Positions 80 through 62,887 of a stretch of 64,000 bases of DNA are shown here, piece by piece. How positions within the stretch are numbered: position 1 is the first letter of the stretch; the number at the start of each line of letters is the position of its first letter. The translations under genes and the position numbers were made by a program. A model generated the notes under the pieces. That model did not search any database, was not told the DNA's origin, and saw only the letters and a program-made list of their open reading frames with translations. Source of the DNA: Tetradesmus obliquus (Eukaryota; Chlorophyta; Chlorophyceae; Sphaeropleales; Scenedesmaceae); the NCBI GenBank assembly GCA_030272155.1, contig CP126199.1, positions 1,488,001 through 1,552,000 on the forward strand, in the 5' to 3' direction.

Positions 80-3000
80 TTGCGCAGCTTGTAGATGGTG
101 TCGATGAAGCGCGGCACAAACATGCGGCCAAACTTGTCGCAGAAGAAGCCAAACTGGCTGGCGTCCAGCACAGCGCCCAGCCGGGGGGCTGCCTCGATGA
201 TGAGCAGCCGCCGCATGGCGCTTACATAAGGGCTGTCGTCACCGGGTGACTCGATGGCGTCCCAGCGCATGCGCAGCATGTCCTGCAGCGATCCAGAGCG
301 GCAGTGATGTTAGTGTAACATAGGAGCGGCAGGGAGCAGGCGCCGCATGGAGCTCACGCAGGGGCTGTCGTCACCAGGTGACTCTATTGTGTCCCAGCGC
401 ATGCGCAGCATGTCCTGTGGGAGGTGGAAGCGGCAGCGTGATACACAGCAAAGACGCTGTGCATTGAAAATTAATTGGTCAAACCAAATTTCTGTTCGGC
501 CAGCAACAGACGCGGATTGCAAATCAAGCACTCCCAGTGTTGCAATCAGGCAGTCTGCTGCTGTGGCTGCTGTGTGTTGCTGTCTGCTCTGCACAGCTGC
601 AGCCTCACACCCACCTGCAGGCAGGCGTCCAGGCGCGTGTTGATGCCCAGCACCAGCACGCTCAAGCACTGGCTGGCCACGCCAGTAAAGGCGCTCTCCT
701 CCTCCCCAAGGTCAGTGGCCTCCACCAGGCTAGGAGCCAGTCCTGGGGCCAGCTCCTTGGCAATGAGACGCCCCAGGCCCTCCGTGGTCTCCCTGCAGTA
801 TAATGAAAAAGAACGGGTGGAGTAGCAGCAGTGATTTTAGCGGATGGGGAACAGTTTGGTGACCCAGGATCTCAGGGTTACATCATAGGGGTGTTGAAGG
901 CAGCGTGCGTGCATGCGCGTTGCACTGCAAGCTTGGCGGCCTACGGCATCGCAACAGAGTCAGCAATGCACTCCACAGCACAACACCGTCTTCCCTTTCA
1001 AGCCTTGCTGATCCGCAGCTGCTATCACCTGCAGTGCTCTGCAGTAGCCAGGATGGCCGCCAGCACCTCCTCCTCCTCCTGCGGCAGCCGCACATGCCAG
1101 TCGCTGCCGTGGTAGGGCGGCTGCGCTGAGGTGCCGCCGGTAGCTGTCTTGGGCAGCCGCTTGAGCAGCTCGCCAGCATATGCAGACAGCACGCGCTGGA
1201 CGCGCAGCAGCAGCAGCAGTAGCAGCAGCAGGGATACACAGGACAGGGTCAGGAACACAGCAGCATGATGCTCAACATCAGGCCCGAGACACAGGGGCTT
1301 ATGCTTGATCATGGCGCTTCCACAGCTGCTTACATGCTAAAGGCGGGCCAAAGCAGCACCTCAAACACGTGTTGCGGCGCCCACTGCAACAACAGCTGCT
1401 CTTGCTGTCATCCCACAAGCCGTTCTGAACCCATGCTTTCTTCCTCTCCCTCGGCTTGACAGCAGCCCCTGCGACGCGCTGCCGGTCATTGCACCCAGCT
1501 GCCTGCTGCTCTCATACGCGCCCCACCTTGAACGCGCCCGCCAGCCGCGCCAGCGTGCGGCCCCTGCTGACTAGCTTTACGCAGCGGTGCAGCGATGCGC
1601 GGATCTTGAGGAACAGCGCGTTAGCGCTGCCCAGCACGTGACTGTCCTCCTGGCCCTCAGGCGGCTTCCAGGCGCGCTCAGCCTCCTCCTTGATGAGCTG
1701 GTCTAGGTGCTTCAGCAGCTGCATGTGGTGCGATGTGTTGACGCGCAGAATGCAGGCAGCAAGGGTAGATGCAGTTGGCAAGTGAGTGTGCCAGCATTTG
1801 GCCCTAGGCAGCAACGTGCTATCAAGTTTGGCCAGCAGTGCTGATGCAGAGGCTGCTCCTGCAGGCCATGATGCAGCGCTGCCAGCGCTTGAGGTACTGC
1901 TAGCGCTCATGGCACTGCTAGCGCTTACGGCACTGCTAGCGCTTACGGCACTGCTAGCGCTCATGGCATTGCTAGCGCTTACGGCACTGCTAGCGCTTAC
2001 GGCACTGCTGCATACAAATGTGTCAGCAGGGCCGTGCATCATACCTCTTTCTGCTCCTCAGCTACGTAGTACTTCAATGAGTCCTCAAACGCTTCACTGA
2101 TGGCTCCTTCAAATGCCACGCGTGCTGCAGCAGCAGCAGCCTCAGCAGACGCACCAGCCGGAGCGCTGCTGCCGCCTGCATCTGCCTGCTGTTGTGCTGC
2201 TGCTGCGGCTGCTGCAGCAGCTGCCGCCGCCGCTGCCTGCTGCTTCTTGCGGAAGGCCTCGAGGCGCCGCCTTGCTTCGCTAGCTGGGAGGTTGTCAATG
2301 TCCTGCATGCAGCATGCACGCAAGCAGCAGCAGCAGCAGCGTTGAATGACATATCACAGATGCATGTACGCACCAGCATGGCCACAACTACGCAAGCCCC
2401 ATCACAGAAGCTAGACTGCGTGCCTTTGCCTTGTAACCCTGAGCCCCTGCGCCAGAGATACCCACCTGCAAGTCATCATCGTCGTCCTGCGCTGCGCCGC
2501 CGCCAAACATGGCCGCCATCTCGCGCTCAAACTTGTTGGTTGCAACAACTGTCTTGATGAGCGGGCCAACGTCCTCACGCACCGCCTCCTCGTTGTCCGA
2601 CAGCAGCCGCTTCACGGCAGCCTGCGGCAGAATCAATTGCGTCACACATGGAGCGAGATGCACATAGCAAGGTATGTGCTTGCGCTCGCACAAACAACAG
2701 ATGGTAAACAGCAACAGTGATGGTGGCGGCTGCCAAACTGTCAAAATATCTGCTATTGCAGCCGCACATTGCCAGCAGCCTGCAGTGCAGGCTGCGCTGC
2801 TTTCCCGTTGTAAACTTCACACAGCGCAAACATCACACAGCGCAGGAGGCCAGATTACCTGCAATCATTGATTACCGCAGCACATGCTGCCTATGCAGCA
2901 CCTTTCCGCACCTTGGTGATCTTGCAGAAGGTGATGCACAGCGTCTGCGGCACGCGCCAGTGTGCCGGGAACACCGCCCACACCTCCTTGCGCTCCTCCA

Positions 3001-9551: not shown

Positions 9552-11130
9552 TGTGCCGTGCCTTGCGCTGCCCTTTCCTGTGTACATGCAGTTTACTGGC
9601 CGCCCCAATGACGTGCGCTGGCACTGCCAGAATGGCACCTGGAACGTGCCCACAGGCAATGCAGGCCTCCTGGACATTGTGATGATAGATACTAACCCCT
9701 TCATGCCACACTACCTAAATGAGGCGTGGTCGAAGAATGCAGGTGGGCGCGGTGCTATAGCAATGTTTGTGTTGCTGTTTGTGACGGGTGCACGTGTAGC
9801 TCTTGTTCAGTCGGTGGGTTGTATAACAATGCTGGGCCTCACCGCAAGCATGCAGTAGGGCGCAACATACGACAGCGCCAGCAATGCCACACAACCCAAG
9901 TGCAGGCTTCAATGCAGCTGTGCACGCTAACATTTTGTGACGCCGTCCTGCAGGGGGCATCTGGCAGCAGAACGCCTCTCAGATCAAGCAGCAGCTGCGT
10001 CAGCGGCTGGCGGCCAGCAAGGCCCGCTGGAAGCTGGTGGTGGGCCACCACCCGATCGCCAGCTACGGCCACCACTGCAAGTTCTCAATGGATGGCGACT
10101 GTGACCACATGGCGTGGCTGGAGGCTGACCTGCAGGTGGGGGCTGGTGTGCATGGCATATGCGTGGACATCGTCATGACACAAATTTGTGAGGTCAAGTC
10201 AACTTAGTCGTGTGTGGCGGCTGTACTGTAGGATGCAGCCGTCATTGCGTATTTGTGCGAGCATGTTCACGACCTGCAGTTCATCACGCGCAGTCACACC
10301 CGGCGTCCTCATGAAGAATACATTGCACGGCGAATTGGCTGCGTCAGCAGCAGCCAAGGCACCCTGCAATCTGTTCTGCAAGCCTACTCTGTGATCATGC
10401 ACCTGTCACTGGTGCCTGCCTGCCATGTACTGCCTGCTTGCGCAATCCAATATGTTGATTGTGATTTGCAGGACGCGCGTGTTGCAGCATATCTGTGTGG
10501 CCACGACCACGACCTGCAGTACATCACGCGCCAGTCAGACCCGGCAGTACAAGACAGCACACCTGTGTGGCCGGCGTTTGTGGTCAGCGGCGCTGGCTCC
10601 AGTGTGCGCAACAATGAGTTTGGCAAGGTCAACCGCAAGGTGGGAGGCGCAATAATCTTGCATTCATATGCTGCCTCAGCAGAAAGTAACAATTGAAACT
10701 GCCTTCATTACATACATACTTCAGGTTTCAATCGCAGGCTCAGGCGAGCTACCCTCAACATTCCTGCATGGTTGATCTGTATCTCGGCGGCTGTACACGC
10801 TTGCTGGTGCTGTGTGGGTGCTGGATTGTCGCTACAGGGGCCAGACTTGTTGATGGCTTGCTGTGGGTGTGACACGAACTCCAGCCACATGTGCCTGCTT
10901 GTAAATGCTGACTTTGCCAAGTTGTCAGCTGGTTTGGGGATCGACTGGTTAGGCTGCTGCTGCTGCTGCTGCTGCGGCTGCTGCCGCAGGAGGGCTACAA
11001 CATGCCTTTCATGGCAGACGACCAAGGCTTTGTTGCTGCGCGCGTCAACGCCAGCCACCTGGTGATGCACTACTACACTACCAGCCACGCAGCGCCTGTG
11101 TACACGGCAGTGCTGGCGGCACAGCGGTAG
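7839..11130 (+). CDS. Purple acid phosphatase (low-molecular-weight metallophosphatase)
   Basis: Predicted dinuclear-metal phosphomonoesterase, 374 residues from eight exons: 7839-8000, 8386-8506, 8771-8844, 9184-9309, 9592-9742, 9954-10135, 10472-10639 and 10990-11130. All joins keep the frame. The metal-binding blocks of the family appear in order: GDWG (residues 56-59), GDNFYDHG (89-96), GNHDYG (127-132), GHHP (242-245) and GHDHD (282-286), which together supply the expected Asp, Tyr, Asn and His ligands. A hydrophobic segment at about residues 12-30 (AAAALLAVVIIVGLSVGLA) after a basic start suggests a signal peptide or anchor, hence a secreted or endomembrane enzyme. The length fits the small plant/mammalian type-5 class rather than the larger plant PAPs. 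Substrate is not readable from sequence; phosphate scavenging is an inference. Introns 1 and 4 end in CTG runs before the acceptor. Confidence 0.95.
9510..9548 (+). repeat. CTG run in phosphatase intron 4
   Basis: Roughly thirteen CTG units on the sense strand lie about 45 bases before the acceptor at 9591. A similar run at 8338-8382 abuts the acceptor of exon 2. They appear to take the place of a pyrimidine tract. Confidence 0.85.
10213..10320 (+). repeat. Decayed echo of phosphatase exon 7 (5' edge)
   Basis: The region resembles the start of exon 7 (10472 onward): GTTCACGACCTGCAGTTCAT against the exon's CCACGACCTGCAGTACAT, and CACGCGCAGTCACACCCGG against CACGCGCCAGTCAGACCCGG. It lies in the intron just upstream, has lost the GHDH histidines and contains indels. 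It is therefore a non-functional, older copy. Confidence 0.75.
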
Positions 11131-15739: not shown

Positions 15740-18700
15740 TCAGCGCCTCTTCCTGCTGCGCCTGCGCCTGCTGTCACCGCTGTCACTGTCGCTGTCACTG
15801 CTGCTACTGCTGCTGTCACTGCTGCTGCTGCTGCTGCTGCTACTGCTGCCAGAGCTGCTGCTGCTGGTGCCGCTGCTGCTGCTGCCGCCGCTGTCGCTGC
15901 CGCCGCCTGCTGCCTTACGTGCAGCCTCCTCTGCTGCGCGGCGCTCAGCCATGATGCGCGGCATCTGCAGATACAGCAGCAAACAAACAGTCAGCAGGTA
16001 CAGCAGCAATCAACTCCACAGCATCACTCCGCTTCGCCGCTCAGCCATGAGACGCGGCATCTGCAATATAATCAGTGGGGACAGCAGTAAGCAATGTCAC
16101 AGCAATTCCCTGTTTTAGCCAATTCCACCCGCAGCACGTGTGTACACATTACAAAGCAAAGGGTGCAGCACGACAGTTTGGGAAACCACAGATAGCATGG
16201 GAAGCAGCAACACATGAACGCACTTGCGCACCCGCTGTGGCACAGCACGCCCTAACAAGCCACATGCAGCTGCGCCTGTCAGTGATGCTGCCCAGGCGGA
16301 AGCTCATTGCCAGGCTCCCTCCCGCACAGTCAGCAGCAAGCAAGCACAAACACGTTGCAAGCACAAACGCGCCACAACCAACGCTGCAGCCGCACCTGCT
16401 TGTACAGCTCGCGCTGCCTGTCCGTGATGCCTCCCAGGCCGATGCTGGTGAAGAAGTTGATGGAGAAGCGCATGGCTGCCATGCTGTCTGTGGGGAAGAT
16501 GCCAGTGAAGTACTGCTGCAGGCTGGGCTCAGCCAGCCGCGCATTGAGCTTGACCAGGCCCATGTACTCGCTCAGCTCCTGCAATCGGTGAAGGTTGTGA
16601 TCATGGTGATGAGGTGTTGAATGGAGAATTATAATTCATGCATGTAAAAGGCAGCTTGGCGCATGCAGCAGCGCGCGTTGAGCTTGACCAGGCCCATGTA
16701 CTCGCTCAGCTCCTGCAGGTGGCATGCAAGGTGTTCAAATGTTGATGTTAAGAGTGCAGATGGCATGCAGCAGCGCGCGTTGAGCTTGACCAGGCCCATG
16801 TACTCGCTCAGCTCCTGCAGGTGGCATGCAAGGTGTTCAAATGTTGATGTTAAGAGTGCAGATGGCATGCAGCAGCGCGCGTTGAGCTTGACCAGGCCCA
16901 TGTACTCGCTCAGCTCCTGCAAGCAATGAGTGATGGTGGTGCGGGTGTTTATCAGTTGAGTGCATTTGAGATACTTGGAAGGCAGGTTGGCACATGCAGC
17001 AGTGCGCCTTGAGCTTGACCAGGCCCATGTACTCGCTCAGCTCCTACAGCATTGACCAGACAGATTGTTGCGGAAACAGGTGTCGATGAACTTCGTAGTA
17101 CCAGCGTTTACAGTTGTGAGCTTGTTGTAAAGGAATATCATTCTGATCTGACTGTTTCGTGCTGGTAGTACAAGCAGGCACCCTGTCGCGATGGTGGGCA
17201 CTCTGCCCTGCACCCACCTGGAAGAGGTACTTGATGAAGATGCGGCTGCTGCTGGTGGTGTTGTCCTCGGTCAGCTGTATGCATCCCAGCACGCCCAAAG
17301 AAATGTAACATTTATAACCTCAATAACATAACACAGCACACCACAATCCTGCCCCCTCCTGGCCCCAATTCACCTGGAAGAGGTACTTGATGAAGATGCG
17401 GCTGCTGCTGGTGGTGTCGTCCTCCGTCAGCCGTATGCAGCCCAGCACGCCCCAGCTGATGCCGTCCACCGCCAGCAGGTGCGCAAAGAGCTTGGCCACG
17501 TTGCGCAGCTTGTTGGTCTCGAGGCGGTGGATGATGGCGTACTGCTTCGCAAAGCAGTCCTCAAACGTGGCCTGCAGGAAAATAATAACATAGCAGATTG
17601 GTTACATGTGCGTGGCAGCTTGTTGGTCTCAAGGCGGTGGATGATGGCGTACTGCTTGGCAAAGCAGTCCTCAAACATGGCCTGCAGATAAAATTTAACA
17701 GGCGGGAAACTTTGTTATGTGGGTGGCGCAGTGTGTTGCACAGTGCGGTGGATGATGGCGTACTGCTTGGCAAAGCAGTCCTCCAAGGTGGCCTGCAGGA
17801 CAGTGATTATAGCGGTGGGTTGGTGATGTGGGTGGCGGCAGTGTGTTACAGAATGTGGTAGCTAATGGCATGCTGCATGTTGGCAAAGCAGTCCTCAGGC
17901 GTGACCTGGAACAGAACAACGATTGGTTGCGTGGGTGGCAGCAGTGCACAGGGCACAGGCAGGAGATGGTGCATCACGGAGTGCGGCCTGCTGGGGAATC
18001 GCAAGGCCGGTCGAGAGGAAATGGCCAAGGCATATTTGCCGCGCCAAGTTCAATGCTGCCGGCTGTACTGGCGGCATGTGCGTTGCACTACTGCTGGTAC
18101 CGCCGTGCTCACTCGTGCAAGGTGAATGTATGCAGGTTCCTTTGACACACCCATCCTGCAGCCTCCATCTCGAGCTCGCAGCGCAGCATGCAGCACTGGC
18201 ATGGTCGCAGGGTGTGTGCATGCATGAATTGCAGTTCCTGTTGCTGCATTCAGCCTGCAGCCCCCATCTGGAGCTCGCAGCGCAGCATGCAGCACTAGCT
18301 TTGAGAAGGCATTGTGCATGCACGTGTTGCAGGTTCATTGTAGAACAGAATAGCCTGCCGCACCTGGAACTCGCGGCGCAGCATGCAGAAGCGCGCTCCC
18401 AGCAGCGTGTAGTAGCGCACAAAGGTCTTCTCCTGGCTGCAGCACTCGATGATCATGATGGGGATCTCAGGCTCCTGCAGGCACAGCACAACACCAAGCA
18501 ATAGCTCCATTGGTATGGTGCCGACAGGAGGATGCATACCACAAACATGTACAAGGTATGGAACCACAAGCAGGCAGGCCAGGCAGCAGTCGGCGTGCAG
18601 CCATGGCCACAACACACTTATAACAGGGACAGGGAGGGCCACAGCAAGCACCCCTGTCAGCTGCAGGGTAAATCGTGGTGCAAGATGTATAGTCAACAGC

Positions 18701-21700
18701 CAGTATGAAAACGACATTGCACGCCGCACCGTGATGTATTATGCAGCAAAACCAGTCCAGCCCTCACCTGCCCAGGCGCCAGCTGGATCTTCATCAGCTT
18801 GTGGCCCGCCTCAGAGCAGACAGGGACACTCCAACAACAGTCACATATCACATGCATACCACGCCCACAGCTCCGAATCCAACCCAGCAATGCTGCCTCA
18901 CCTGCCCAAGAGCCAGCTGGATCTTCATCAGCTTGTGCCCCGCCTCCTCAAAGTCCACAGCAGGGCCATTCATGCAAGCTACACAACTGGTAGCTCAACA
19001 ACATGCTGTCAGCAGGATGACAACAATCAAAGACAACGAGCCTCACCTGCCCCGGCGCCAGCTGGATCTTCATCAGCTTGTGGCCCGCCTCCTCAAAGTC
19101 AAGGCTGCTCATGATGGTCAAATAAATTGTGCGCCGCAGGTTGACCAGGTTGGTGCCCGTCTCGTCCTCGATGTCCTGCTGCTGCTGCTGCCGCTGCTGC
19201 TCCTCCTCGTCGTCAGACTCCTCCTCGCCAGAGCCTGCAGCAGCAGCAGCAGCAGCAGCAGCAGGGCAGTGATTAGTCCTCTCACAAGTGAGGTGGAACT
19301 TAGCTGCAGCACTCCTGCTCGGTACACCCAGCCACAGCTCGAGTGATGAGCAACAGCCAAAGCCTCTGTTTGTTGCAGGTTTGCAGTTCCCCACAACTTT
19401 CTGCTTTCAACTGCAACCTCCCCATCTCGCACGGCAGGCACCACCATGCAGCACAGTACTTCCCTTACACCAGGCATACCCACAACCAGCAACAACCCAA
19501 CCCATGCAACCTCACCGCCTTCCTCCTCTTCGTCCTCGTCCTCGTTGTTGCCCAGCAGCTCCTTCACAACAAAACCACCCCATGCAGCACAGCATTCTAA
19601 ACAGATTGAAGCAGACTGTTCAACCCCTGCAGCCTCACCGCTGCCGTCTCCTGCGCCCTCCTCATCCTCGTCATTATCAAGCCCAGCAGCTCCTTCACCA
19701 AGGCCCAACCACCCCAGGCAGCACAGCACACTGAACACAACAAGACGGCAAAAGACTCCCGCTCACCGCTGCGCTTCGCGCCGCCGCCCTCCTTTTTTAC
19801 CATGGTGCAACACCCCATGCAGCACAGCACACTGAACAAACCATAACAAGAACGACAGCCCGCTCACCGCTGCCCTCAGCGCCGCCCTCCTCATCCTCCT
19901 CTTCATCATCATCGCCCAGCAGTTCCTTCACCAAGGCCCAACCACCCCAGGCAGCACAGAACACTTAAAACACAACAAGACGGCAAAAGACTCCCGCTCA
20001 CCGCTGTCCTTCGCGCCGCCGCCCTGCTCTGCATCCTGGTGCAACACCCCATGAAGCACAGCACACTGATTAACACAAAACAATAATCGCGTCGCCGCCC
20101 TCCTCTGCATCCTGGTGCAACACCCCATGAAGCACAGCACACTGATTAACACAAAACAATAATCAACCTGCAGCCTCACCGCTGCCGTCTCCTGCGCCCT
20201 CCTCCTCATCCTCCTCTTCATCCTCCTCGCCCAGCAGCTCCTTGACAATGGCGCGGTACTGCACCTCGTGCTCCGCATACTCGGGGTCCTCCTTGAACAC
20301 GTTGAGGATGGCCTACATGGAAAAAATCAGGTGCAGCGCACACAGAACAACAACAATCCAGGTCAGCACAGGCCAGCCACCAGCAATGGTGGCAGATGAC
20401 TGTTGCAGCCATGCGCCTCGTGCTCCGCATACTCCGGGTCCTCCTTGAACACGTTGAGGATGGCCTGCAGCACACATACATAGAAGTTGCATACACAACT
20501 GAAGTAAGCACAGGTTGCCAGCATGACTCAAGGGCAGCCAGCATGCACCGCATATTTGGGGTCCCTTTTTGACCACATTGAGGATGGCCTGCAGCACACA
20601 CGCACAGGAACACATTGAAGGTGAGCCACAGGCTGCCAGTGTGACTCTAGGGCAGCCAGCAGCAAACCAAAGCCCTTGGCCCGCCTACGGGTCGCGCTTG
20701 TCACCCAGGGACATCTCTCTTGCATTATGCTATAGCTGCCCCGCCACGGCAGAATCAGCCGATTGCAGACCACAACCGCTGCAGGGCCCACAAAGCAGTC
20801 TCACCTGCGGGTCGTGCTTGTCGTCCAGGCTCATCTCGTGCGTGATCTGGTCCTCATCCTCCACCAGGTCCAGCGCAGGCGCAACAGCGGGGTGGCCGCT
20901 GGCCTCAAAACCGGCCTAAAGGGTTTTAAAGAGCACAAAGCAGCAGCAGCAGCAGCAGCAGCGCCATACCGTGAGTGGCAAACAGGACGTTGCAGGTGAT
21001 CTGGTCCTCGTCCTCCACCAGGTCCAGCGCAGGAACCACAGCAGGGTGGCCGCTGGCCTCAAAGCCAGCCTGCGCAGTAAGGGGGGACAAGCAAGGGTGC
21101 AGGATGACGAACAGGCAATTGCGGGTCCATTTCACACACAGGTCACCCGGCAACAAATAGACAGGCATTGCCTGCAAATGAAGAGCACTCAGCAGAAACT
21201 GCGCTGCGACACACGCCGCACACGCCACCATCAACATTCAGCTGCCTGTACACCCAGTCGAAGCTACTACCCAGCACGGGCGCAGCCCACACAGTACACA
21301 AAGAGTCTCAACCGCGTTCGTCTGCTGCCGCACCTTGCGCACAGCAAACAGCCCCTCAATCATGTACTGGCAGCGCTTGTCGATGGCGCCCTCGTGCAGG
21401 ATTGCCCTGAAGCGCTCAAAGACGCTGTGCAGCCCCGCAGGAGCCACGTCCTGCAGGTATGCGCCCACCTGCAGTGAGGAGCAGGCAGAGCAGGGCAAGG
21501 AGAGCAGCAGCAGCAGGACTAGTGATGAGTACAGGGCTGGTTTGGTCTGCGGGTACAACACGCTGTGCAGCCCCGCAGGAGCCACATCTTGCAGGTACGC
21601 GCCCACCTGCACACACGCAAATGCAGACAGCGGGGCGCGGTGTATACAGCAGCAGCAGCAGCAGCAGGCGCAGGCGGATGGGTAAGAACTGATATGGGCA

Positions 21701-22150: not shown

Positions 22151-23701
22151 TGTGTGTGCGTGCATTGCTGGATGCAGAACTGACCAACAAACATGGTTGA
22201 CCATGATATCTGGCAACAACACAAAAACCTAGAAATAACAGGGAAGATACAGATAATGTGCAACGGCACCACGCGCACCTCGTGCAGCATGCCCTGGTTG
22301 ATCAGCATGACCATGCTTCCCAGCAACAACATAAAATCACAAGTATTAGGCAGATAAACATGCCATGTCGCCACGCGCACCTCGTGCAGCACGCCCTGGT
22401 TGATCAGGTGCGTCAGAATCTTGGCTGCTGCAAGTAAACGACCCAAGACCCCTGTGACACGTCATGTCATCAAGGAACGACCCAAGACCCCTGTGACACG
22501 TCATGTCATCAAGGAACACCCCGTCGCTCGCCGAAACACACACCTGCGCTGCCTGAACAAGGCACAACATACCTCGTGCAGCACGCCCTGGTTGATCAGG
22601 TGCGCCAGGAACTTGGCCGCCGCAATCGTAATCGGCTTGTCGTTGCGCTTGTACGCGCGCTTGAACTGCGCCAGCAGCCGGTGGCACAGCAGCTCGCCCA
22701 GCTCGGGGAACTTGGTGTTGACCACGCTGATGAGCGCCGCGTACAGCGGGCTGAAGGTGGGGCTGGCCAGCTGCGCCTTCATCACCGCCTGCACATCAAC
22801 GTCAAACAAACGGATGGTGATGTGACAGAGGTGTTGATGGTGAAAACTTTACTAGGAGCGTCGCAGCGGGCTGAAGGTGGGGCTGGCCAGCTGCGCCTTC
22901 ATCACAGCCTGAGAATACACATGCAGAAAAGCAACAGCTTGGTGAGTTGGGTGAAGAGGTCGCTCGTTTGGTAGTTGAGTGGGATAATTGCAGCGGGCTG
23001 AAGGTGGGGCTGGTCAGCTGCGCCTTCATCACCGCCTGCAGCACAAACAAACAAACAAACAAATATTAGAATGTGAACATGGAGTTTTCAGAGTTTTTTT
23101 TACAAATGTGAGGCGTACTTTAAGGCAGCTTGTTTGGTGTTGACCACGCTGATGAGCGCTGCATACAGCAAGTTGAAGGTGGGGCTGGCCAGCTGCGCCT
23201 TCATCACCGCCTGAATGACATCAAGCCGCGAAACGCAATGTTAGCATTAGCGTCAACCGTGAGTCATTGGTATGTTAAAGGTTGCGGCGTACAGCGGGCT
23301 GAAGGTGTGGCTGGCCAGCTGCGCCTTCCATCACCGCCTGGAAAGAAGCAGCACAAGGGTAGGATATGTCGAGCAGTGAGGTGGGGATGGTGCAGTATGT
23401 GCTGACAAATGGAGCAATGCAACACCAGCTGCTGGGTCGGCCGGCAAGCTTATGCATTCATCAGCTGCTGCAGGTGTCTGGCAGCATGCCAGTGCCTCCC
23501 AACCAATTCAAATGCTGAGCAGCCATGGCTGCTGGCAGCAGCTTTCCAATGCTGCAACAGCTCACGCCTGTGGTGCCTATGAAGCAGCAGCAGCGGCAGC
23601 AGCGCGCCCCACCTGGCAGAAGAGGCCCCTGCCCCGCATGAGGTTCTCCTGGAACAGCTCCGGCAAAATGTCCTTGATGTTGGGCGCGTTCACCTGCAGC
23701 A

Positions 23702-23734: not shown

Positions 23735-26025
23735 GCAGCAGCAGACAGCAGCAGACGCACGTCAGATGCAAGAACACAACCACTGTGGGGCCGGGTTCAA
23801 CGGGCATGCCAGCTTCTGGCAACACACCGGTAGCATCGCATTGCATCAGGTTTGATGCGTGTCTATTTCTTACACTCACAGCCTCTGTGTCACTGCGCGC
23901 CGCACCTTGAAGATGAGGCCGTTGAGGCTCTTGCACTGCGCCTCCCAGCTCGATGCAACGACACTGTGACGCCGCAATGGCTGCATCTGATGATATTGCA
24001 TACACTTGCAGCACCCAGCCACACCTTTCTTACCCTCACAGCCTCTGTGTCACGGCGCACCGCACGTTGTTGATGAGGCCGTTGAGGCCCTTGCACAGAC
24101 CTCCCAGCTGCATCGAGCATCAAAGCAATGACACTATAGCGCTGCACTAAATGCATTTGATATATGTTGCCCACCTTGTTGATGAGGCCGTTGAGGCTCT
24201 TGCGCAGCGCCTCCCAGCTCAGCTTCTGCGCTGCCGCGCTGTTCTTGTCGTCAATGTCAGCCATCATGCGCGCCAGGCGGAAGGGAGGGATGTAGGCCCC
24301 GCCCGCACGGCCTGCAAGACGAGACACAAGACACGAAACGGCACAGCACAAACATGTTCACTTTGCCTCGCTGCATGCTGCAGTATGCCACCATGCGCGC
24401 CAGCGGAATAGCGGGATGTAGGCGCCCCCCTGCGCGGCCTGCAGCACGCAAGAAGCAGCAACAACATTAACAGTGAGTGCATGTATGCAGCCCCCGCACG
24501 GCCTGCAGCACGCAAGACGCAGCAACAACATTAACAGTGAGTGCATGTATGCAGCCCCCGCACAGCCTGCAGCATGCGAGACAGTGTGACACAGAACAGC
24601 ACATGTTGACGAGGAGCACCATACCACGCAGTGGTTGTGGCTGCAGGGTGTGCAGCAGCTGCGTGTCGGCCTTCTACAGGTTGGGTGGGCAGGGTGCTGG
24701 CGTGCAGCTCACCGTGCAGCAGCTGCTACCCCCTGCTGAGCCCATACAGAAAAACAATATGCGGAAACCCAAACTAGGAGGTACACTGCAGCAGCTGCTA
24801 CCCCCTGCTGAGCCCATACAGAAAAACAATATGCGGAAACCCAAACTAGGAGGTACTAAGCGGCTGTATCGTGGTCAACCTCCACCTCACACTAGCAGCA
24901 GCAGCAGCGCTCCAACCGCAAGCAGGACACATGTTGCTTAAGTCAATTACAGTGCGCTGCGCACCGCAACTGCACATCTTGCAGGTGCAGCTGACTTGAC
25001 CAGCAAGGTGCTGCAACTGTGTTAACACATCCAACAGGCCCCACCTGACAGTGCTGCCTTCTTCTTCAAGAAGTCAGACGCCTCTGCCTCCTCACCACCA
25101 CCAGCTGCTGCTGCTGCTGCTGCCTGCACTGCGTCTGCAGCTGCATCCCCACCACCAACACCAGCAGCAGCTCCGTTCTCCTCAGCAGCAGCAGCATCAC
25201 CGTGCCCGCCTCGTTCCCTGCCGCTGCCATTCCTGTCAGTTCCCCGGTCCCGCTCCTCTGCAGCGTCCCTGCCACCGCCCCTGCTGCTGCCGCCATACCT
25301 CTCCCGGCTGCGGCTGCGGCCGCCGCGGCGAGCTGATGATGTAAAGCCTCGCCCTTTCCGCACCTCTGCTGCTGCTGCATCACCTTCCTTTGTGCTGCCG
25401 CTGCCTCCGCCGCCGCCGCCGCGGCTGCTGCCACCACCCCCGCCCTCTTCGCGTGCATATGCATCATATCCCCATCGGTCGCCGCGGCGGCGGCTGCCAC
25501 CTGCGCCTGCGCCGCCCCTGCTGTCCCTTGGCGCTGCTTCCCGCTCCCGTCCCTCATCCCTCCGCCTGTCCCATCCCCCACTGCGGCCACGCTCGCGGTC
25601 CCGATCGCCAGCTGCTGCTGCTGCTGCCGCGTCTCGCCGCTGCTGCGGCCGCTCCCTGCTTCTGCTCCTGCTGCTGCTGCAGCGCCTGTCTTTGTCCCTG
25701 CCTCTGTCTCTGCTGCGGCTGCGGCTGCGAGCTGCTGCTGCTGTGGGCTTGTCGCTCACTCCTGCAGCGTCCTCGTCCTGCTGCTGTATGCGGTGGTCGT
25801 CATCATGATCTGATGTGCCATGGCCCTGGTGCCTGCAGGCAAGGCAGCACAGCAGCGGGGCAGCAAAACACTGATACACGAGAACAGCAGGGTGTGGCGG
25901 AGCGCAAGACCTGTCGAGGTTGCAGCGCCAGCGCTACATATGCATGCGCAGCCAGTCGTTGTTTGCAGGACATGGCATGCTTGGGCATACATGCAGTCAG
26001 ATCATGGGATACAGCAGCAGATAGT

Positions 26026-28641: not shown

Positions 28642-29489
28642 CACAGCAGCAACCAGCAGCATTACCAGCAGCAGCACCAGCAGCAGCACCAGCAGCAGGT
28701 TGAGCAACAGCAGGTTGGGCAGCAGCAGCAGCAGCACCACTAGCAGCAATAGCAGCAGAACTGGCAATGGCTGCCAGCAGCTGCTGTACTGGCAGAGCCC
28801 TGGCAAAGCAGCTCACCTGTAATGATGTATTGTGATGCGCTGTGTGTGCCCTCTGTGTTCAAGTTGCTTGGTGGCACAGCAAGCAACTGGCATGACCTGC
28901 ATGTGTGCGCTGTGGCGTGCCTGCTGCCGTGCAGGCGCTCGTTCAGCCGCAAGCTCGCACAGGATGCAGCAGCAAGGACCAACAGGTGATCCGCATGACA
29001 TTGTTGCAAATATCTGCGACCAAGCAGCGCTACTTTGGCAGTTTGCGGCATGCACAGATGAAGGTGGGTTGATTTTGGCATGCACCAAGGCACAGATGAC
29101 AGATGTCCCTGCCAGCCAGCAGTGGGTGCAGCTGAGCTGTTGTGTCGCGGCTGCACAGCACTTGCTAGGCCATCCTGCGCCATGCCTGCAGCGCGGCTCT
29201 GCTGGTGCCGCTTGGTGCGGATAAGTGTGCTCATGGTTTCTTTCTACCTACTGCGGCAAAATGAACGACGCCACTGTTGCTGCTTTGATGATGATCGCAT
29301 CCTTTCCCGCTGCCCACAGGGATGTGCGCATGCTTCTGGTTGACCTGCGCTGCCATGGCGACTCAGCCAGCCGCTACGGCCTGTGGTTCTTGCCTAAACC
29401 TCATTCTGTTCTGCCATGGCTTGTGCTGCTGGGTGCGCATGGCGTTTGCTGTCATGCACTGTGGCAGTTTGCAGCGCAGTGAACCACCT

Positions 29490-29538
<49 letters not shown>

Positions 29539-29728
29539 CTGCCGCCTGCTGCCCTCAGGGATGTGTGCATGCTGTTGGTCGACCTGCGCTGCCATGGCGA
29601 CTCAGCCAGCCGCTACGGCCTGCATTTATGCCTGCACACCATTCTGCTCTGCCGTGGCTGGTGCTGTTGGGCGCGTGCGGCGTTTGATGCCATGCATATA
29701 TGACAGATTGCAGTGAAGTGAACCACGT

Positions 29729-29770
<42 letters not shown>

Positions 29771-31499
29771 GTGCAATGTCTGCTGCCCGCAGAGATGTGC
29801 GCATGCTGCTGGTCGACCTGCGCTGCCACGGCGACTCAGCCAGCCGATACGGCCTGCACCCGCCCCACAGCATGGCTGCAGCAGCAAACGACGTTGCCCA
29901 GCTCATAAAGCAGCAGCTGGGTGGGCAAGCCCCACACCTGCTAGCTGGCCTCAGCTTAGGGGGTAAGGTGGCGCTGCAGCTGCTGAAGCAGATGGTAGAA
30001 GAAGAGGAGCAGCAGCAGCAGCAGGCGGCTGGGCAGTACCACCACCATGGTATGTATGAAGCTGCGCCGCCAATCTCTCCGCCGGAGGACTTCAAATTGA
30101 GCTGCAGCCTCCCAAACACCACCACCACCAGCAGCAGCAGCAGCAGCCAAGCATCCTCACTACCAACAGCAGCAGCAAATGCTACAGATGCAGTAGCATC
30201 CTCACAGCTGCCACAGCCGCCGTTCCGGGGCCTGCCGCAGCAGGTGTGGGTGCTGGACTCTCAGCCTGGCACTGTGCCACTAAATGTGGATGCTCCCACA
30301 AGTGTTGGCAAGATCATCCAGCTAATCCATCAGATCCCAACCCCGCTGCCAAATCGGCAGGCGCTTTACAAGTATCTAGAGCCAAAGGGCATCCCGCTGC
30401 CTGTTGCGCAGTGGCTGGGCACAAGTCTGGTGCCTGGTGGGCGCTGGGGCAGCAGCAGCAGCAGCAGCAGCAGCGGGAATGGCAACGGCAGCAGTGATCA
30501 GCAACTAGACTGGGTGTTTGACATCACAGGGGCGGCCGCACTGTACAACTCCTACAGGTGAGAGGAAACACAAAGCCAAGCAGGGAGGATGCTGCTAGAC
30601 AGGCAGAGACTCCTGCGTCCTAGACTCCTGCTACTACTTTTGATCCCAAAGGCCACCGACCCTGAACACAGGTGCACTACCCATTGTGCCACTTTTGCAG
30701 AAACAAACAAGTAACAAAACACATTTTGCTACAGAATACTTGTAGTGGGTTGATGATTCATTCTTTTTCCCCCTTTTTTGCACCTGCAGGCTCAGCAGCT
30801 ACTGGGATGTGCTCACGCAGCCGCCGCCCGGTGTCGTGGTGCACCTCATGCGCGGCGAGCTCTGGACTTTGCCTTGCGCTGGGTGCCGCACTTATTTTTC
30901 TATGTCACCGCACGCTGAGTGCTGACGGCACAGCACTTGCCCTCTCTGCCACTGCAGGCGCTTTCAGGGGTCTCCAAGCATCTCTTGGTCATGTGCTTCA
31001 TGCCGCTGTCATGCATGGTTTCCTGCTTCGCCGCACCTGCAGGCTCAGCAGCTACTGGGATGTGCTGTCGCAGCCGCCGCCTGGCGTTACAGCACGCTCA
31101 ATGCTTGCTTTTGTGGCGCATTGTTTGGTGTTTCCTTCCGCTTGCTCCTGCGTCTGCATTCATTCGTCCCCCTGCTTCCTTCTATTTTTCCTGTTTTTCT
31201 GCACCTGCAGGCTCAGCAGCTACTGGGATGTGCTGACGCAGCCGCCGCCAGGCGTTGTAGTGCACCTCGTGCGCGGGGAGCTCTCCGACCGCTGGACGCC
31301 GCACATGCTGCAGCAGCTGGCCGATGCAGAGGCAAAGTGGCAGGAAGCGTCCTCGGAAGCACCAGAAAATGTAGGGGAGCTGCAGCTGCATGTGCTGGAA
31401 AAGGCAGGGCATTGGCTGCAGGCTGATAACCCGGAGGGGCTTGCAGCGCTGATGTCGCCTTGGCTGAAGGATCTGCACCAGGCTCGGCTGCTGTGGTGA
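27912..31499 (+). CDS. Alpha/beta hydrolase, ABHD11-like plant/algal family (5' end unresolved)
   Basis: Serine hydrolase fold protein of unknown substrate. Exons: ?-28163, 28547-28599, 28935-28985, 29793-30557 and 31211-31499, with compatible phases. Family blocks: TAVFLHGLLGSSRNW (oxyanion-hole HG), MLLVDLRCHGDSASRYGL, the nucleophile elbow GLSLGG (Ser codon at 29953), QVWVLDSQPG, the LSSYWDVL segment, an acid candidate in GELSDRW, and the catalytic His in EKAGHWLQADNPEGL. The order and wording match the plant ABHD11-like hydrolases. Poly-Gln and poly-Ser insertions interrupt the lid region. The upstream frame (RPLVCCCQALRAAALACN) looks like an organelle presequence but starts only with GTG at 27912, so the true start is probably in an unseen exon. 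Two exon edges and the terminal exon tail have been tandemly duplicated. Confidence 0.87.
29312..29625 (+). repeat. Two echoes of hydrolase exon 4 (DLRCHGDSASRYGL edge)
   Basis: Copies start at 29320 and 29559; the functional exon starts at 29793. Spacings of 239 and 234 bases, with matching downstream flank and CTG runs before the second and third acceptors, show a tandem unit of ~237 bases. All three acceptors keep the same phase. Only the third reads on into the catalytic serine region. Confidence 0.93.
30780..31092 (+). repeat. Two echoes of hydrolase exon 5, 5' edge
   Basis: Acceptors at 30789 and 31042 are each followed by LSSYWDVL(T/S)QPPPGV, as at the true exon start 31211. The first copy runs ~80 bases into the exon (to RGEL), the second ~45. 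All share CACCTGCAG before the exon. Confidence 0.93.
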
Positions 31500-32080
31500 T
31501 GTGATCGAGATGACGAGCAGATCCTGCAATGCTGCAGCGGTGATGTGCAGGACGACGAGAGTGTTGCTGCTGCTGGTTAGCGCCGTCCATTGCAGACAGC
31601 AACTGCACATGCGGAGGGTGTGGTGTGTTGCAGCTGCATGTGCTGGAGAAGGCAGGGCATTGGCTGCAGGCTGATAACCCGGAGGGGCTTGCAGCGCTGA
31701 TGTCACCTTGGCTGAAGGATCTGCACCAGGCACGGCTGCTGTGGTGATCATGACGGTCATGCATTTGACGTGCAAAACTTGCAATGCTGCAATCATGTGT
31801 GTATGCAGCACGACAAGAGTGTCACTGCTACTGGACGGCGCTGTCCAAATTGGACAGCAGCTGCTCATGTGGTGTGGCGCTGATGTTGCAAAGGGCTGAA
31901 GGCCGACTGGTGCAGACAGACTGCATCGGGCTCGCCTGCTGTGGTGATGCGCTGATCTTGACATGGTTGCTGCGATCATGTCTGCGTGCAAGCGGGCAGA
32001 GTGTCTCTGCTGCAGCAAGCTTTGCCGGTCGTCTGCGGCCACTGCACATGTAGTGTGGCGCAGGCTGATGGTGTGTGATG
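31500..32080 (+). repeat. Echoes of the hydrolase terminal exon after its stop codon
   Basis: The segment LQLHVLEKAGHWLQADNPEG...ARLLW plus TGA recurs at 31629-31747, 248 bases after the original, almost unchanged. A much weaker third copy of the tail and its flank is visible at about 31885-32065. These lie in the expected 3'UTR or downstream, so translation would not reach them. Confidence 0.9.
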
Positions 32081-49049: not shown

Positions 49050-49088
<39 letters not shown>

Positions 49089-49544: not shown

Positions 49545-49577
<33 letters not shown>

Positions 49578-50343
49578 GGGTGGTGACGTGGCTGGCCCGG
49601 GTGCTGCATGTACTGGTGCGGCTGTCCATAGGGGCTGCTGCTGCTGCTGCCATAGTAATCACCTGAGCCTGGCCCAGCATATGCCTGCTGCTGCTGCTGT
49701 TGCTGCATGCTAGGCATTGGCACCTGGCCAGCATGGTGGTACTCCATCTGCCCGCCCTGCCGCTGCTGCTGCTGCTGGTGGTGGTGGTGCATCGGAGCTG
49801 GGACAGCAAACTCTGCTGCTGCTGCCGGCCCTGCAGGGGTGCTGCTGCTGCCAGGGCCCGAGTAACGCGTTGCTACAGCAGTAGCAGATGATGCAGGAGC
49901 TGTGGTGGCACTTGAGGCGATGGGGGACGCGCCAAACACACCAGCAGCTGCACCAACAGCATCGTGAATGGGCTGGTGTGGCGGGGGCAGCATAGCACCT
50001 GCTGCCGCCGCTGCTGCTGCTGGTGGTGCAGCTACCTGTGCTGCCCCTGCCTGTGCTGGCTGCAGGGCAGCTGCTGGTGACAGCTGCGACTGCGCTGCAT
50101 CACCAGTGATCCTCCGCTCCATAACTCTCTGCGCTCCAGGCTGCCTGGGACTGCCGAAGCTAAATGCAGTCCCTGCTGCTGCTGCTGCAGCCGCTGCTGC
50201 TGCTGCCGGCGGCGACAGCACTGATGCTGCAGCATACTCTGGGCTTGCATCGACAGGGCTTGCGCTTGCAGGCGAGGGATGGTGGCTGCCGTTGCTGCTG
50301 CCTGTGCTGCCTTTTTGAGCTGGCCCAAGGGGCCCTGCACACA

Positions 50344-50386
<43 letters not shown>

Positions 50387-50695
50387 GGCGAGAGGGCTTG
50401 CTGCAGCATCTGCTGCTGGTGCTTCTGCTGCTGCATCATCCATAGTGGTGTCACCTGCACTGGTGCTTGCAGGAAGTGCTGCTAGGGCCTCTTCAGTGCA
50501 GGCTCCTGAAGCTGCATTGCTGGCAGAGGCGGGTGACGCTGGCAGCGCCTTGGTTGCTACTGCATCGGCACACAGTGGCTGTTCTACTTGCAGGAGCTGC
50601 TGCTGCTGCTGCTGCTGCTGCTTTTGGGCCAGGTGCGCTGCTGCTGGGAGCTCTCCTGCAGCTGCTGCGCCAGGCACGACACTAGCCAGCTCCAT
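45070..50695 (-). CDS. Large poly-Gln nuclear protein with AT-hook and C-terminal RAMA domain
   Basis: Two exons, 50695-45890 and 45618-45070, join in phase 0 (AAG|GTGAGA ... CCTATAG|CTG) into 1784 residues. Most of exon 1 is Gln-, Ala-, Ser-, Pro- and Gly-rich disorder. About residues 445-485 (LSLQYYTLAHQQQVLREQLN) form a short coiled coil. At about residues 1441-1452 lies MRRGRGRPPSRA, a minor-groove AT-hook. Residues ~1685-1770 (TFCDLVTAGAFPPGTYEF, VITYGSEQYASISSFALAAA, GWKEVRLAGRKLELWR) fit the RAMA fold (restriction adenine methylase associated), a small domain proposed to recognise modified DNA. Together these suggest a chromatin- or DNA-binding regulator; a link to N6-methyladenine is inference. 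ATG 50695 is the first in-frame Met before the conserved frame. It is preceded by GCGCAG, so an upstream exon cannot be excluded. Confidence 0.82.
50344..50384 (-). repeat. Poly-Gln tract (CAG on the sense strand)
   Basis: About a dozen CAG codons occur in the N-terminal part of the RAMA protein, one of many such runs in exon 1. In exons the sense strand carries CAG; in introns it carries CTG. Confidence 0.9.
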
Positions 50696-58599: not shown

Positions 58600-59491
58600 C
58601 GACAACCCGCTGCAGCCTGCCACTGTCAAGGAGCGGCACAACTTGGAGGCAGACCCGCGCTACAGGCGGTGAGGCGGGCTGCTGCTGCTGCTGCTGTCGA
58701 TCACAGTCACACGGCTTGTCTGGTTCTATGACAGGTGCCGCAGCAGCGCGTGGATCCTACGCCTCTCTTGTCCTACCAGTTGTAAAAGCAGCAGTAACGG
58801 CATTGGCAGCGCACGGTTTCTTATACACACGTTATCTTGAAACCACATCCTGCCCATTGAAGTAATATGCTGTCTATATGTTCGATCGATGCTTGCAGCA
58901 CCGACTTCAATGCTGAGCTGGCAGCAGAGGCACGGCATCAACTGTAGCACTTCACTCCATCTGCATATTCTGCTGTCTATGCTTGCAGCACCGATTTTAG
59001 TGCGGAGCTGGCGGCAGAGGCTCGGCTGCAGTTTGCGGCCTGCCTGGCGCAAGGGGAGGCGCGGCTGCCGCTGGCGCGCGCTGCGCTGCTGATCGCAGCA
59101 GAGGATGACGCAATCGGTGAGCATGCGCTGTGGCGCAGCTGCAAACCTTAAACAATCAGATGGGTGTGTATGCGGGCAAAGTGGGCTGGGGAGCGGCTGT
59201 TGGGTTCATGGTGTGTATTTCTTTCGTCATCTCACAGCAGGGGAATGTGCCAAGCTGCTTGAGGCTGTCTGCGGCAGGTGTGAGCTTCCTTTGTGTCAGG
59301 CCTGCTGAAGCTAGTTCTAAATGTATCTGCTGTGTTGCTGCTGTTATTGCTGTACTGCTGCTGCAGCGTCATCCTCCATTGTGAGATTCCCTGTGGATGC
59401 CTTCATGGAGCGCATCACACGGCTTGCACGCGATACAGCAACAGCACTGGCAGCAGCAGCAGCAGCAACAGCAGCCGCCACGCCAAGCAGT

Positions 59492-59524: not shown

Positions 59525-60223
59525 GAGCAGCAATGGGCAAGCTTGCGCGGGCTTCCTGCAGAGCAAGTGGTGGCAGCCATTGAGCACTGCTTGTTCAAGG
59601 ATCACCAGCTGCAGCAGCAGTGGTACAGTGGTGTGCGCTGTGCCGGGTTCAGCATGCCTGCATACGGCCGCAGCAACCTGCCAAGGAAGGCGCTGCTGGA
59701 CCACCCAGGTGATTTTTTCACTGTGACAGAATACAAATGTAACATATTTGGACTCACGACCCTGACGCTGGCTGGGGTGCTGCATGCGGTTCAGCTCAAA
59801 CCCTAGCCCACAAAGGGGGGTTGGTTGGCCAATAGCTGCAGTGCAACTGATGCGGCTGCATCATGCTTGGCACTGCTGCGGCTTGTTGGCATGCTGTCTG
59901 CGCGTCTCATGCGCTGCCGCTATCGCCGCTGCTGCTGCTGCTGCTGCTGCCGCCTGGCTGCAGGCGTGTGGGAGGGTGCCCGCTTGGGCTACCTGCACGA
60001 GGTGCTGGTCAAGCAAGTTTTTCTGAGCTGCCGTTGCTGCTGCTGCTGATTCCGCTGCCGGTCCTAGAGGAAGAAACATTAAAGAACAGCTCATCATCAG
60101 CACTCTGAAGCACACCGTACTGTAGCAGCAGCCCCAGTTCATTGCTGCCGCCTGACTGCAGGTGTGTGGGAGGATGCCCGCTTGGGCTACGTGCACGAGG
60201 TGCTGGTCAAGAAGCGCGGCTGC

Positions 60224-61248: not shown

Positions 61249-61292
<44 letters not shown>

Positions 61293-62887
61293 GGCTTGCG
61301 GCACCATGCACGATACTGTCAAATTTTGCCTGTGCGGCTGTGCGCGCCGCTGTGCTGTTGCAGGGGTGCTGCCAAGGCTGCATTGCACTCGGACGACATC
61401 TCTGCTGCACTGCGAGCCATTTCAGCTACGGCAGCACACAGGCTGCAGCGGGGCATATGGACCAGCCCGGTGAGCTGCTGCTGCCAATGTTTGTCATGTC
61501 ACTGGAATTTATCATTGTTTGATGTGTTGCACCAGGCTTGGACCCTCGGCAAACGTTTACTACAGGCGCGCAGGCTGTGTTTCAACAAAGGGGTGACCAT
61601 GTTGCTGCTTGGACACGATTTTGACCGCGTGTTTGACTGCGTGTTTGACCGTGTGTTTGACCATGTGTTTGACCGTCCTGCAGGGTGCTGGCGACCTCAG
61701 CAGGTGCCTGGCTGCCTGTGAGCGGCTGGTGATGCTGGTGGGAGACGAGCAGCCGCAGGAGCGGTGAGCACAGCGCAGCACCACACAGCACCACACAGCA
61801 CAGCACAGCACAGCACAGCACAGCACAGCACAGCACAGCACAGCACAGCACAGCACAGCACAGCACAGCACAGCACAGCACAGCACAGCACAGCACAGCA
61901 CAGCACAGCACAGCACAAAGTAGTAGGCAATGCCGAGCGGCACACTTTGGCTTAGTAATTTGTGCTGATGATGTGAATGATGCGCTGTGTCAAGCTGCAC
62001 GGGTCACGGGCCATAACACCACAACAATTTTGATGGAACCATGATACACCGCTGTCTGAGCCGCTGGTGATGCTGGTGGGCAAGGAGCAGCCGCAGGAGC
62101 GGTGAGCACAGCACAGCAGCACAGCACAGCAGCACAGCACAGCAGCACAACACAGCACAAAACAGCTCTGAAAACTTCATGTTCACAGCACAGCACTGCA
62201 CAGCAGGCAGTGCTCAGCAGCATGCACTGCACCTATGGTGTGTTTTCGTGTGATGTATGTTTGCTGCTGCTGCTGCTGCTGCTGCTGCTGTGTGCAGGCG
62301 TGACCTTGGGGTGCTGCTGCTGCATGCCGGGCAGCCCGCTGCTGCTGCTGCGGAGCTGGCAGCATACCTGGACAGTACCAGATCAGCAGGTCCAAGGTTT
62401 GGCCGAGCTGCTGCTGCTGCTGCTGCTGATCCGCTTGACGTGCGGTTTGCGCAGCAGCTCTGGAAGATGCTGGTTCTGGATACTGGCATTGTTCCTGCAA
62501 GGTGAGAGCTGATACACTGCTATCATGCTGCACTTACAGCACAGATCTGGCAGCAGCTGCCACAGCAGCATCTGCAGCAGCAGGACATCTACGTTGTAAA
62601 GGGGGAGTTTACAGTTTATGTTGTATGAAGACTTGCTGATCAGCTGAAGCCCTTGCTGCTGTTGATTGCAGCCGCAGGTCCTGCAATGCCATCCGTGATG
62701 CCAAATTTGCTAGCCTTCTATTTCTTTCATGCATGCTGTTTGCAGAAGTTCACTGACCTGTTACAACTCTTAAATGTGCTGCAGGGAGTTGATGAGTGTG
62801 GAGAAAGTCCTGGCTCAGGGGCTGCCAACAAGCAGCAGCGGCAGCAGCAGCAGTAGCAGTGATGGTTACAAACCTTTGACCTGGTGA
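58600..62887 (+). CDS. SirB1/transglutaminase-like protein with TPR-type C-terminus (5' end unresolved)
   Basis: Nine exons join in frame: 58600-58668, 58989-59116, 59367-59708, 60305-60455, 60774-61070, 61364-61469, 61684-61763, 62298-62501 and 62785-62887. The order follows the SirB1 family: FSAELAAEARLQFAACLA and LARAALLIAAEDDAI at the N-terminus, EDARLGYLHEVLVKKRGCPA then ALVILYNEVMQQLLLMGAVG (the RRGIP-like core), AELLRHLKRAYWPFPWDT, and a helical repeat tail RRDLGVLLLHAGQPAAAAAE. The family is found in bacteria and plastid-bearing eukaryotes; its biochemical role is unsettled. Poly-Ser and poly-Gln inserts are present. The incoming phase of exon 58600 needs two bases from an upstream exon. 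ATG 57662 followed by an exon at 57838 would fit (leader QALPLTQQANIGTIVKRRVR) but requires a 30-base intron, so it is only a candidate. Exon edges are echoed at five places. Confidence 0.87.
58890..58940 (+). repeat. Echo of SirB1 exon 58989, 5' edge
   Basis: GCTTGCAG then CACCGACTTCAATGCTGAGC copies the exon start (CACCGATTTTAGTGCGGAGC) about 92 bases upstream, with several substitutions. Confidence 0.9.
59955..60228 (+). repeat. Two echoes of SirB1 exon 60305, 5' edge
   Basis: Acceptors near 59964 and 60160 are each followed by VWE(G/D)ARLGY(L/V)HEVLVK. The second copy extends through KKRGCPA before a CTG run. The functional exon starts at 60305 and alone continues into LVILYNEV. Confidence 0.94.
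61613..61680 (+). repeat. 12-bp repeat before the SirB1 acceptor at 61683
   Basis: Four to five units of the form gtgtttgaccgt (one carries ctgc, one ccat) run up to CCTGCAG. It supplies a T-rich stretch immediately before the exon. Confidence 0.9.
61765..61917 (+). repeat. Pentanucleotide (CACAG)n array directly after a SirB1 donor
   Basis: The array begins right at the donor GTGAGCACAG of exon 61684-61763 and contains about 25 perfect CACAG units after an imperfect start. All six frames are open through it, so the long frames are artefacts. Confidence 0.96.
62048..62165 (+). repeat. Echo of SirB1 exon 61684-61763, 3' edge
   Basis: GGTGATGCTGGTGGG, then an AAG-for-AGA difference, CAGCCGCAGGAGCG and the donor GTGAGCACAG are repeated about 340 bases downstream. 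A short imperfect CACAG/CAGCA array follows, as at the original. Confidence 0.93.

Follow-up and report, generated by a model that had tools for sequence, protein, structure and literature searches.

Local duplication, amplification and decay of exon edges within introns of the green alga Tetradesmus obliquus

Introduction

The origin of intron sequence is a long-standing question, to which answers have usually come from single cases. Tandem exon duplication and mutually exclusive exons are familiar sources of local copies of exon sequence. The copies described here come from a window of 64,000 nucleotides (nt) of the green alga Tetradesmus obliquus (contig 9, CP126199.1, positions 1,488,001-1,552,000, of the 104.7-Mb assembly GCA_030272155.1 in 17 contigs) and from stretches sampled across the same genome. 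They are mostly partial exon ends carrying one splice site rather than whole exons, and they lie in the intron adjoining the exon that they resemble. We call them echoes. One gene of the window, at 36.7-40.5 kb, stands apart in that whole exons are copied.

Tandem duplication across intron-exon structure has been documented in single genes (PMC4974935, PMC2891723). The potato RdRp case resembles the echoes in being a local same-strand duplication that includes splice signals; in the passages of that report that describe it the outcome is a new intron in one gene (PMC4974935), whereas in the alga existing introns appear longer, 15-19% of tested junctions are affected, the copies often form arrays and AG|GT is not required. 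Novel Drosophila introns that arose by tandem duplication of proto-splice sites likewise involve exon pieces beside splice sites, one copy being intronised, but they number a handful, depend on AG/GY proto-splice sites and, in the passages concerned, are accompanied by no intronic arrays of exon edges (PMC2891723). The introners of Micromonas, like the echoes, shape introns massively and genome-wide in an alga; as characterised in the relevant part of that account they are repeats common to many genes (PMC3488318), whereas each echo derives from its own neighbouring exon, and five whole-genome searches located the spacers at a single place each. No description of dense exon-edge arrays was found in the open-access full-text literature, subscription journals lying mostly outside that scope. 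As one genome offers examples at about one sixth of tested edges, in states from identical to almost erased, birth, amplification and decay become measurable.

Exon edges recur in the adjoining introns

Our sample consisted of the window and 25 stretches of 10 kb taken at round coordinates over the 17 contigs, 314 kb in total. A same-strand copy in the adjoining intron was found for 100 of 534 exon edges, against 6 of 534 in a control in which each edge was sought beside one unrelated junction. The test took the 36-nt exon edge at strong junctions and accepted copies of at least 72% identity within 1.2 kb on the adjoining side. Two repeat-rich cases, the low-complexity repeats of L007 and the tandem-exon gene at 36.7-40.5 kb, are included in this count, in the pair and array counts given next and in the test of 325 introns discussed below. 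Without them 81 of 532 junctions have an echo, and this reduced set underlies the copy-rate profile and the flank, spacing and decay results.

Self-comparison of the sample, with simple repeats masked and same-strand pairs at most 1.5 kb apart, returned 312 local repeat pairs and none in 78 shuffled sequences (three for each of the 26 sampled). Echoes extend genome-wide beyond the window, but patchily: 20 of the 25 stretches hold at least one pair, and among the 42 gene models in which junctions were tested, 25 show an echo at one junction or more. Among the 28 genes with at least eight tested junctions heterogeneity is strong (chi2 91.8, df 27); the TRA1-like gene of L010 (Pfam Tra1_ring) has echoes at 13 of 26 junctions and the predicted CWC22 model at 16 of 37, while seven of the 28 have none. 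Of 296 genic pairs, 215 (73%) span a junction, against 51% when the pairs are moved to random positions within genes, and 20 (7%) are wholly intronic, against 26% after such moves. The pairs group into 122 arrays. In 88 of them an annotated splice junction falls within a copy; of the remaining 34, 15 were judged by eye to be exon-edge echoes, one of these at a stop codon. At L027:2977-3288 a predicted terminal exon has its end, with the stop codon, repeated downstream in the presumed 3' untranslated region, so that edges of coding sequence besides splice sites can be echoed.

The preliminary description of the window had placed echoes of 5' exon edges always upstream and those of 3' edges always downstream of the true exon. 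This is nearly right: in the two edge classes copies on the expected side outnumber those on the wrong side by 36 to 6 (of 239 edges) and 40 to 9 (of 230), and the wrong-side matches make "always" too strong. Inverted copies were found at none of the 239 and none of the 230 edges. The expected excess at junctions over the rest of the intron is also borne out, since 15% and 17% of exon-edge 30-mers in the two classes have a copy, against 2.2-2.8% of intron windows unlike exon edges. By 30-nt window the copy rate is 16.2% at the exon edge, 10.4% at 30-60 nt, 3.2% at 60-90 nt and 0.6-3.2% deeper in the exon (control 0-0.9%). On the intron side it is 5.4% in the adjacent 30-mer, about 5-7% up to 180 nt and 8-11% beyond, where the windows are probably often echoes themselves. 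The nearest echo is offset by a median of 129 nt (interquartile range 112-152) and takes in a median of 52.5 nt of exon; the offsets show no frame bias (remainders 0, 1 and 2 in 32, 27 and 22 cases).

Introns with echoes have a median length of 369.5 nt (n = 38), against 275.5 nt without (n = 158), in keeping with the suggestion that the process lengthens introns. A link to the proposed route of intron gain through AG|GT-bearing duplications did not materialise on either side of the intron. Exons beginning with GT number 7 of 38 with an echo and 53 of 233 without, and exons ending in AG 25 of 43 and 132 of 218. As neither exon end is enriched, the process is by this test not AG|GT intron gain; the introns concerned belong to recognisable genes, existing introns look longer, and no intron gain is shown.

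The gene models are ab initio predictions, from a finder trained on 17 hand-read exons of CWC22 and a phosphatase gene, and its final output (46 genes, 509 exons; 14 of the 17 training exons reproduced exactly) labels several echoes as exons. Copies in introns that look coding and have good splice sites thus mislead gene prediction, which could favour an explanation of the echoes as an artefact of gene models or assembly. However, the hand-read CWC22 exons are backed by protein homology, and the LHC and UPRT genes of L015 yield Pfam-supported proteins across echoed junctions. An assembly artefact is hardly likely because the copies differ among themselves (about 71-100% identity in the exonic part), as do spacers and flanks. 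Overall we consider an artefact of either kind most improbable.

The CWC22 homologue carries most of the scored echoes of the window

All five genes of the window in which echoes had been reported (VPS53, the phosphatase gene, CWC22, a hydrolase gene and a gene labelled SirB1) carry exon-edge copies in adjoining introns, very unevenly distributed as 1, 1, 24, 3 and 3 (Table 1), the single phosphatase echo being weak (score 29). Exon edges were scored by Smith-Waterman alignment with a cut-off at the 99.5% level of shuffled introns (23.3, from 318 scores; the top shuffled score was 39). The raw output was 47, from which 15 hydrolase rows lying on one CTG run were removed. The 32 that remain at this threshold are fewer than the "more than forty" first counted.

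The 11 hand-read internal exons of CWC22 join into a protein that matches residues 2-524 of PDB chain 8xi2_V (E 1.5e-231), which we take to be a Chlamydomonas chain, and 5mqf_T, a CWC22 homolog (8e-194), and contains the Pfam domains MIF4G and MA3. The true exons align with 8xi2_V without any echo, and the main gaps lie in an acidic low-complexity stretch. The 24 scored echoes, 14 of 5' edges and 10 of 3' edges, belong to 11 of 20 junctions and lie in 10 introns; by eye about 30 can be counted. Many true acceptors are preceded by one to four passages in which TGCAG leads into the opening 40-80 letters of the exon, and many true donors are followed by one or more copies of the exon end, with donor-like sequence after it.

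Table 1. Hand-read CWC22 exons and exon-edge copies in the window (positions count from the first letter of the window)
Gene	Feature	Position	Strand	Identity and remarks
CWC22	internal exons, part 1	24175-24311, 23613-23693, 22573-22788, 22027-22110, 21334-21468, 20805-20915	-	hand-read
CWC22	internal exons, part 2	20180-20312, 19047-19234, 18364-18474, 17374-17571, 16396-16578	-	hand-read
CWC22	four echoes, 5' edge of exon 16396-16578	16654-16712, 16774-16814, 16876-16916, 16982-17043	-	86-98%
CWC22	echo, 3' edge of exon 17374-17571	17218-17287	-	94-95%; intron flank common for only 3 nt
CWC22	two echoes, 5' edge of exon 17374-17571	17615..17792	-	96% and 84%
CWC22	two echoes, 3' edge of exon 19047-19234	18768..18955	-	98% and 93%
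CWC22	three scored echoes, 3' edge of exon 20180-20312	19516..19931	-	81-85%; inside longer array 19498-20252
CWC22	two echoes, 5' edge of exon 20180-20312	20412..20588	-	96%; 82% (weak score)
CWC22	echo, 5' edge of exon 20805-20915	21000..21069	-	90%
CWC22	echo, 5' edge of exon 21334-21468	21557..21606	-	92%
CWC22	two echoes, 3' edge of exon 22573-22788	22279..22440	-	96% (short, weak); 87%
CWC22	four echoes, 5' edge of exon 22573-22788	22864-22908, 22991-23035, 23141-23210, 23284-23337	-	93-98%
CWC22	two echoes, 3' edge of exon 24175-24311	23906..24109	-	91% each
CWC22	repeats of 5' edge, upstream of exon 24175-24311	24387..24582	-	outside scored intron set
VPS53	echo, 5' edge of exon 76-282	345..414	-	87%; 132 nt away; intron flank common for 3 nt
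Phosphatase (label by reading only)	weak echo, start of exon 10472-10639	10247..10300	+	80%
Hydrolase	239-nt repeat around 5' edge of exon 29795-30557	29306..29858	+	echo 29563-29624 (94%); further copy 29309-29383
Hydrolase	copies of 5' edge of exon 31211-31391	30764..31284	+	31043-31088 (96%); about 30790-30863
Hydrolase	248-nt repeat, mostly intron, from 3' edge of exon 31211-31391	31374..31872	+	includes third scored echo, 31392-31455
Labelled SirB1 in the preliminary description	echoes	58899-58936, 59966-60013, 62057-62101	+	84% (weak), 96%, 91%

Amplification and decay of the copies

Since similarity often ends at the splice site, a frequent order along an intron is an alternation of exon pieces and spacers that ends at the exon itself. 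Units of 94, 102 and 137 nt are repeated in tandem perfectly or nearly so; in CWC22, a 102-nt unit is present in 2.6 perfect tandem copies at 16661-16921. By reading, the spacers of the CWC22 array at 16.6-17.1 kb still look related; those among the four echoes at 22864..23337 are mutually unrelated by eye. Echoes of one junction end at the same exonic position to within 5 nt in 47 of 89 pairs, compared with 15% for pairs from different junctions; this points to a single initial event that was amplified afterwards, although not at every junction.

Where 60 nt or more of flank can be aligned (43 echoes), mean divergence is 0.095 in the exonic and 0.185 in the intronic part, a ratio of about 2 where an estimate for neutral copies gives 1.5. 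Mismatches between exon and echo fall at about 5% of first, 4-6% of second and 12-13% of third codon positions, and 52-56% of them are synonymous, against 24% for random changes and an estimated 46% or so for a neutral echo beside a constrained exon. Coding constraint on the echoes themselves was considered and rejected, the codon-position pattern being much alike in flank-copied echoes and in sharp-edged ones (at most 13 nt of alignable flank).

Selection of echoes as splicing decoys or regulators might be read from the intact GT of 40 of 42 3' echoes with copied flank, which exceeds the neutral expectation, and from the place of CWC22, a splicing factor, among the densest genes. Yet in the other echo classes AG or GT is intact in 19 of 24, 27 of 31 and 23 of 33 cases, about as neutral decay would leave them; splicing in the nearest echo would shift the frame or introduce a stop in 72 of 81 cases; and echo density varies greatly between genes. 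We consider such selection very unlikely and see no good evidence of a function for the echoes.

Copy boundaries and the origin of echoes

In the scenario that we favour, short stretches of exon edge would be duplicated time and again, on the same strand, into the intron beside them, mostly at a distance of 85-170 nt. Where the correct splice site is kept and the copy lies inside the intron, the protein would be unchanged and the event could survive, and duplications inside exons would be removed. Once two exon pieces surround a spacer, the whole unit of exon piece and spacer could multiply in tandem, and the copies would then decay roughly neutrally. Their exonic part may stay exon-like longer than the flanks because it now and then undergoes non-crossover exchange with the exon next to it, which selection keeps unchanged, and the outcome would be an intron growing out of its neighbouring exon. 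We advance this scenario tentatively, giving the whole of it, refreshing of the exonic parts included, a little less than an even chance of being correct; three of its elements, local duplication next to exon edges, the amplification of units, and decay, have good support. Refreshing is preferred to copying limited to the exon because sharp-edged and flank-copied echoes are similarly spaced (medians of 134 and 124 nt; p = 0.09) and in some arrays the spacers still look related.

Several points weigh against the scenario. Among single echoes of at least 93% exonic identity the intron flank is homologous in 5 of 19. Real flanks mutated artificially were recognised in 97.9-100% of cases at up to 0.15 events per site and in 66-72% at 0.3. 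The tandem duplication across the junction envisaged at the outset accordingly stands as regards strand and side, but intron and exon were seen to be copied together in just these five of the young single echoes. A CWC22 example has unequal exonic end points (45, 45, 77 and 53 nt). Of 84 differences in young echoes 52 are synonymous, somewhat too many for neutral copies. In the profile of all echoes no loss of refreshment is seen at the far end of the outermost copy; crossover alone would leave that end unrefreshed, and a conversion-like exchange must therefore be assumed. To our knowledge, exchange restricted to pieces of 25-80 nt has been established in no alga. There is also a background to consider: 179 of 2045 intergenic windows (8.8%), all from four stretches, have a local copy. 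As intergenic DNA thus has local repeats too, part of the echo signal may reflect a generally duplication-prone genome from which selection purges exon-internal events.

The intergenic copies also favour a rival explanation, plain neutral tandem duplication across junctions, with no targeting or exchange, in which exon-internal events are purged and introns diverge fast. With an estimated detection advantage of about 1.5-fold for exon-side copies, the 16% at exon edges is not far off what it would give. The flank is copied in 16 of 30 nearest copies at multi-echo junctions (9 of 30 outermost) and in 12 of all 51 single echoes. Incomplete unit alignment occurs outside exon edges as well: less than 0.75 of the offset is aligned in 44 of 88 arrays at junctions and in 5 of 14 judged non-exonic, a weaker contrast than expected. 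At 90% identity or more the figures are 16 of 21 and 2 of 6. However, plain duplication predicts more intron-only copies than are seen, and the 5 of 19 homologous flanks fall far below the near-complete recognition that it would lead one to expect. We regard it as unlikely and already strained.

The abrupt stop of many near-identical copies at the junction speaks instead for copying limited to the exon by a process aware of splice sites, such as repair or template switching on spliced or partly spliced transcripts. At exonic identities of at least 95% the flank is homologous in 19 of 47 exon-echo pairs and in 8 of 18 echo-echo pairs, both members of which are non-coding. An L015 echo of 48 nt (98%) shares only 2 nt of flank and an L003 echo of 54 nt (100%) only 5 nt, the latter's exon piece and spacer being then perfectly repeated. 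None of 42 sharp-edged flanks exceeds the 95% level of unrelated flanks, and one of four classes shows a slight upward shift in similarity (p = 0.01, n = 10); as the class is defined by its short alignable flank, this result is partly by construction, whereas the flank-homology test is free of that cut. Exon-internal TGCAG seeds hardly any copies (for the 30-mers that follow it, 4 of 283 upstream and 5 of 283 downstream), so that acceptor-like microhomology alone fails as a sufficient cause, and the tandem-exon gene at 36.7-40.5 kb holds units from which the intron is absent exactly as after splicing. Of the 30-mers that precede an exon-internal AG|GTG, 1 of 75 has a copy.

Against exon-limited copying, joined spliced exons were found among 325 introns only in the 36.7-40.5 kb gene and as low-complexity or repeat-unit matches, which gives RNA-templated insertion of spliced sequence no general support. 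Many echoes retain splice-site sequence beyond the exon; some young blocks run 26-32 nt into the intron and then end (L010, L021, L015). Inverted copies are absent, as given above, and the spacers have no source elsewhere: none was found for 28 cases in the 314-kb sample, and five whole-genome searches with echo plus spacer, in which very common words were skipped, found only the own place and the own exon. The same searches reject an identity with introners. Exon-limited copying of this general kind seems to us quite unlikely. Slightly more doubtful still is splice-aware writing, in which exon ends cut at the splice site would be copied into the adjoining intron, for example by transcript-templated repair. 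If the sharp stop did reflect the making of the copies rather than their ageing, splicing would be linked to DNA change; under splice-aware writing, splicing would mark the DNA to be duplicated, and introns would be built from their own exons.

Other genes and repeats

The predicted VPS53 protein matches Pfam Vps53_N over its first 363 residues (E 4.2e-85), and a tRNA-Met gene (anticodon CAT; 4363-4434, minus strand) lies on the same strand inside a long VPS53 intron. In the hydrolase gene the Pfam match Abhydrolase_6 falls slightly below its cut-off. The sole Pfam match of the gene labelled SirB1 is TPR_9, and arrays of the pentamer AGCAC lie at 61767-61917 and 62105-62159, in or near one of its introns. 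On the minus strand, 45830-50722 is an open frame of 1630 codons rich in CTG/CAG runs, mostly one exon according to the gene finder.

Outside the window, four tandem arrays at L018:3848-9681 lie outside predicted genes or at a gene end; their units of about 157-230 nt align over the full length at about 69-83% identity, unlike many exon-edge arrays. At L012:1249-9970, where repeat pairs within 1.5 kb were not found, a predicted protein contains, within 900 residues, one long sequence twice in full and a third time in part and is perhaps that of a mobile element.

The tandem-exon gene of the window (36756-40440, minus strand) has, by reading, four units in which exons of 30 and 87 nt are split by an intron and four more consisting of the same 117 nt with the intron precisely missing. 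Three of the intronless units are near-identical 324-nt copies. This looks like precise intron loss followed by amplification, with intron gain as the alternative.

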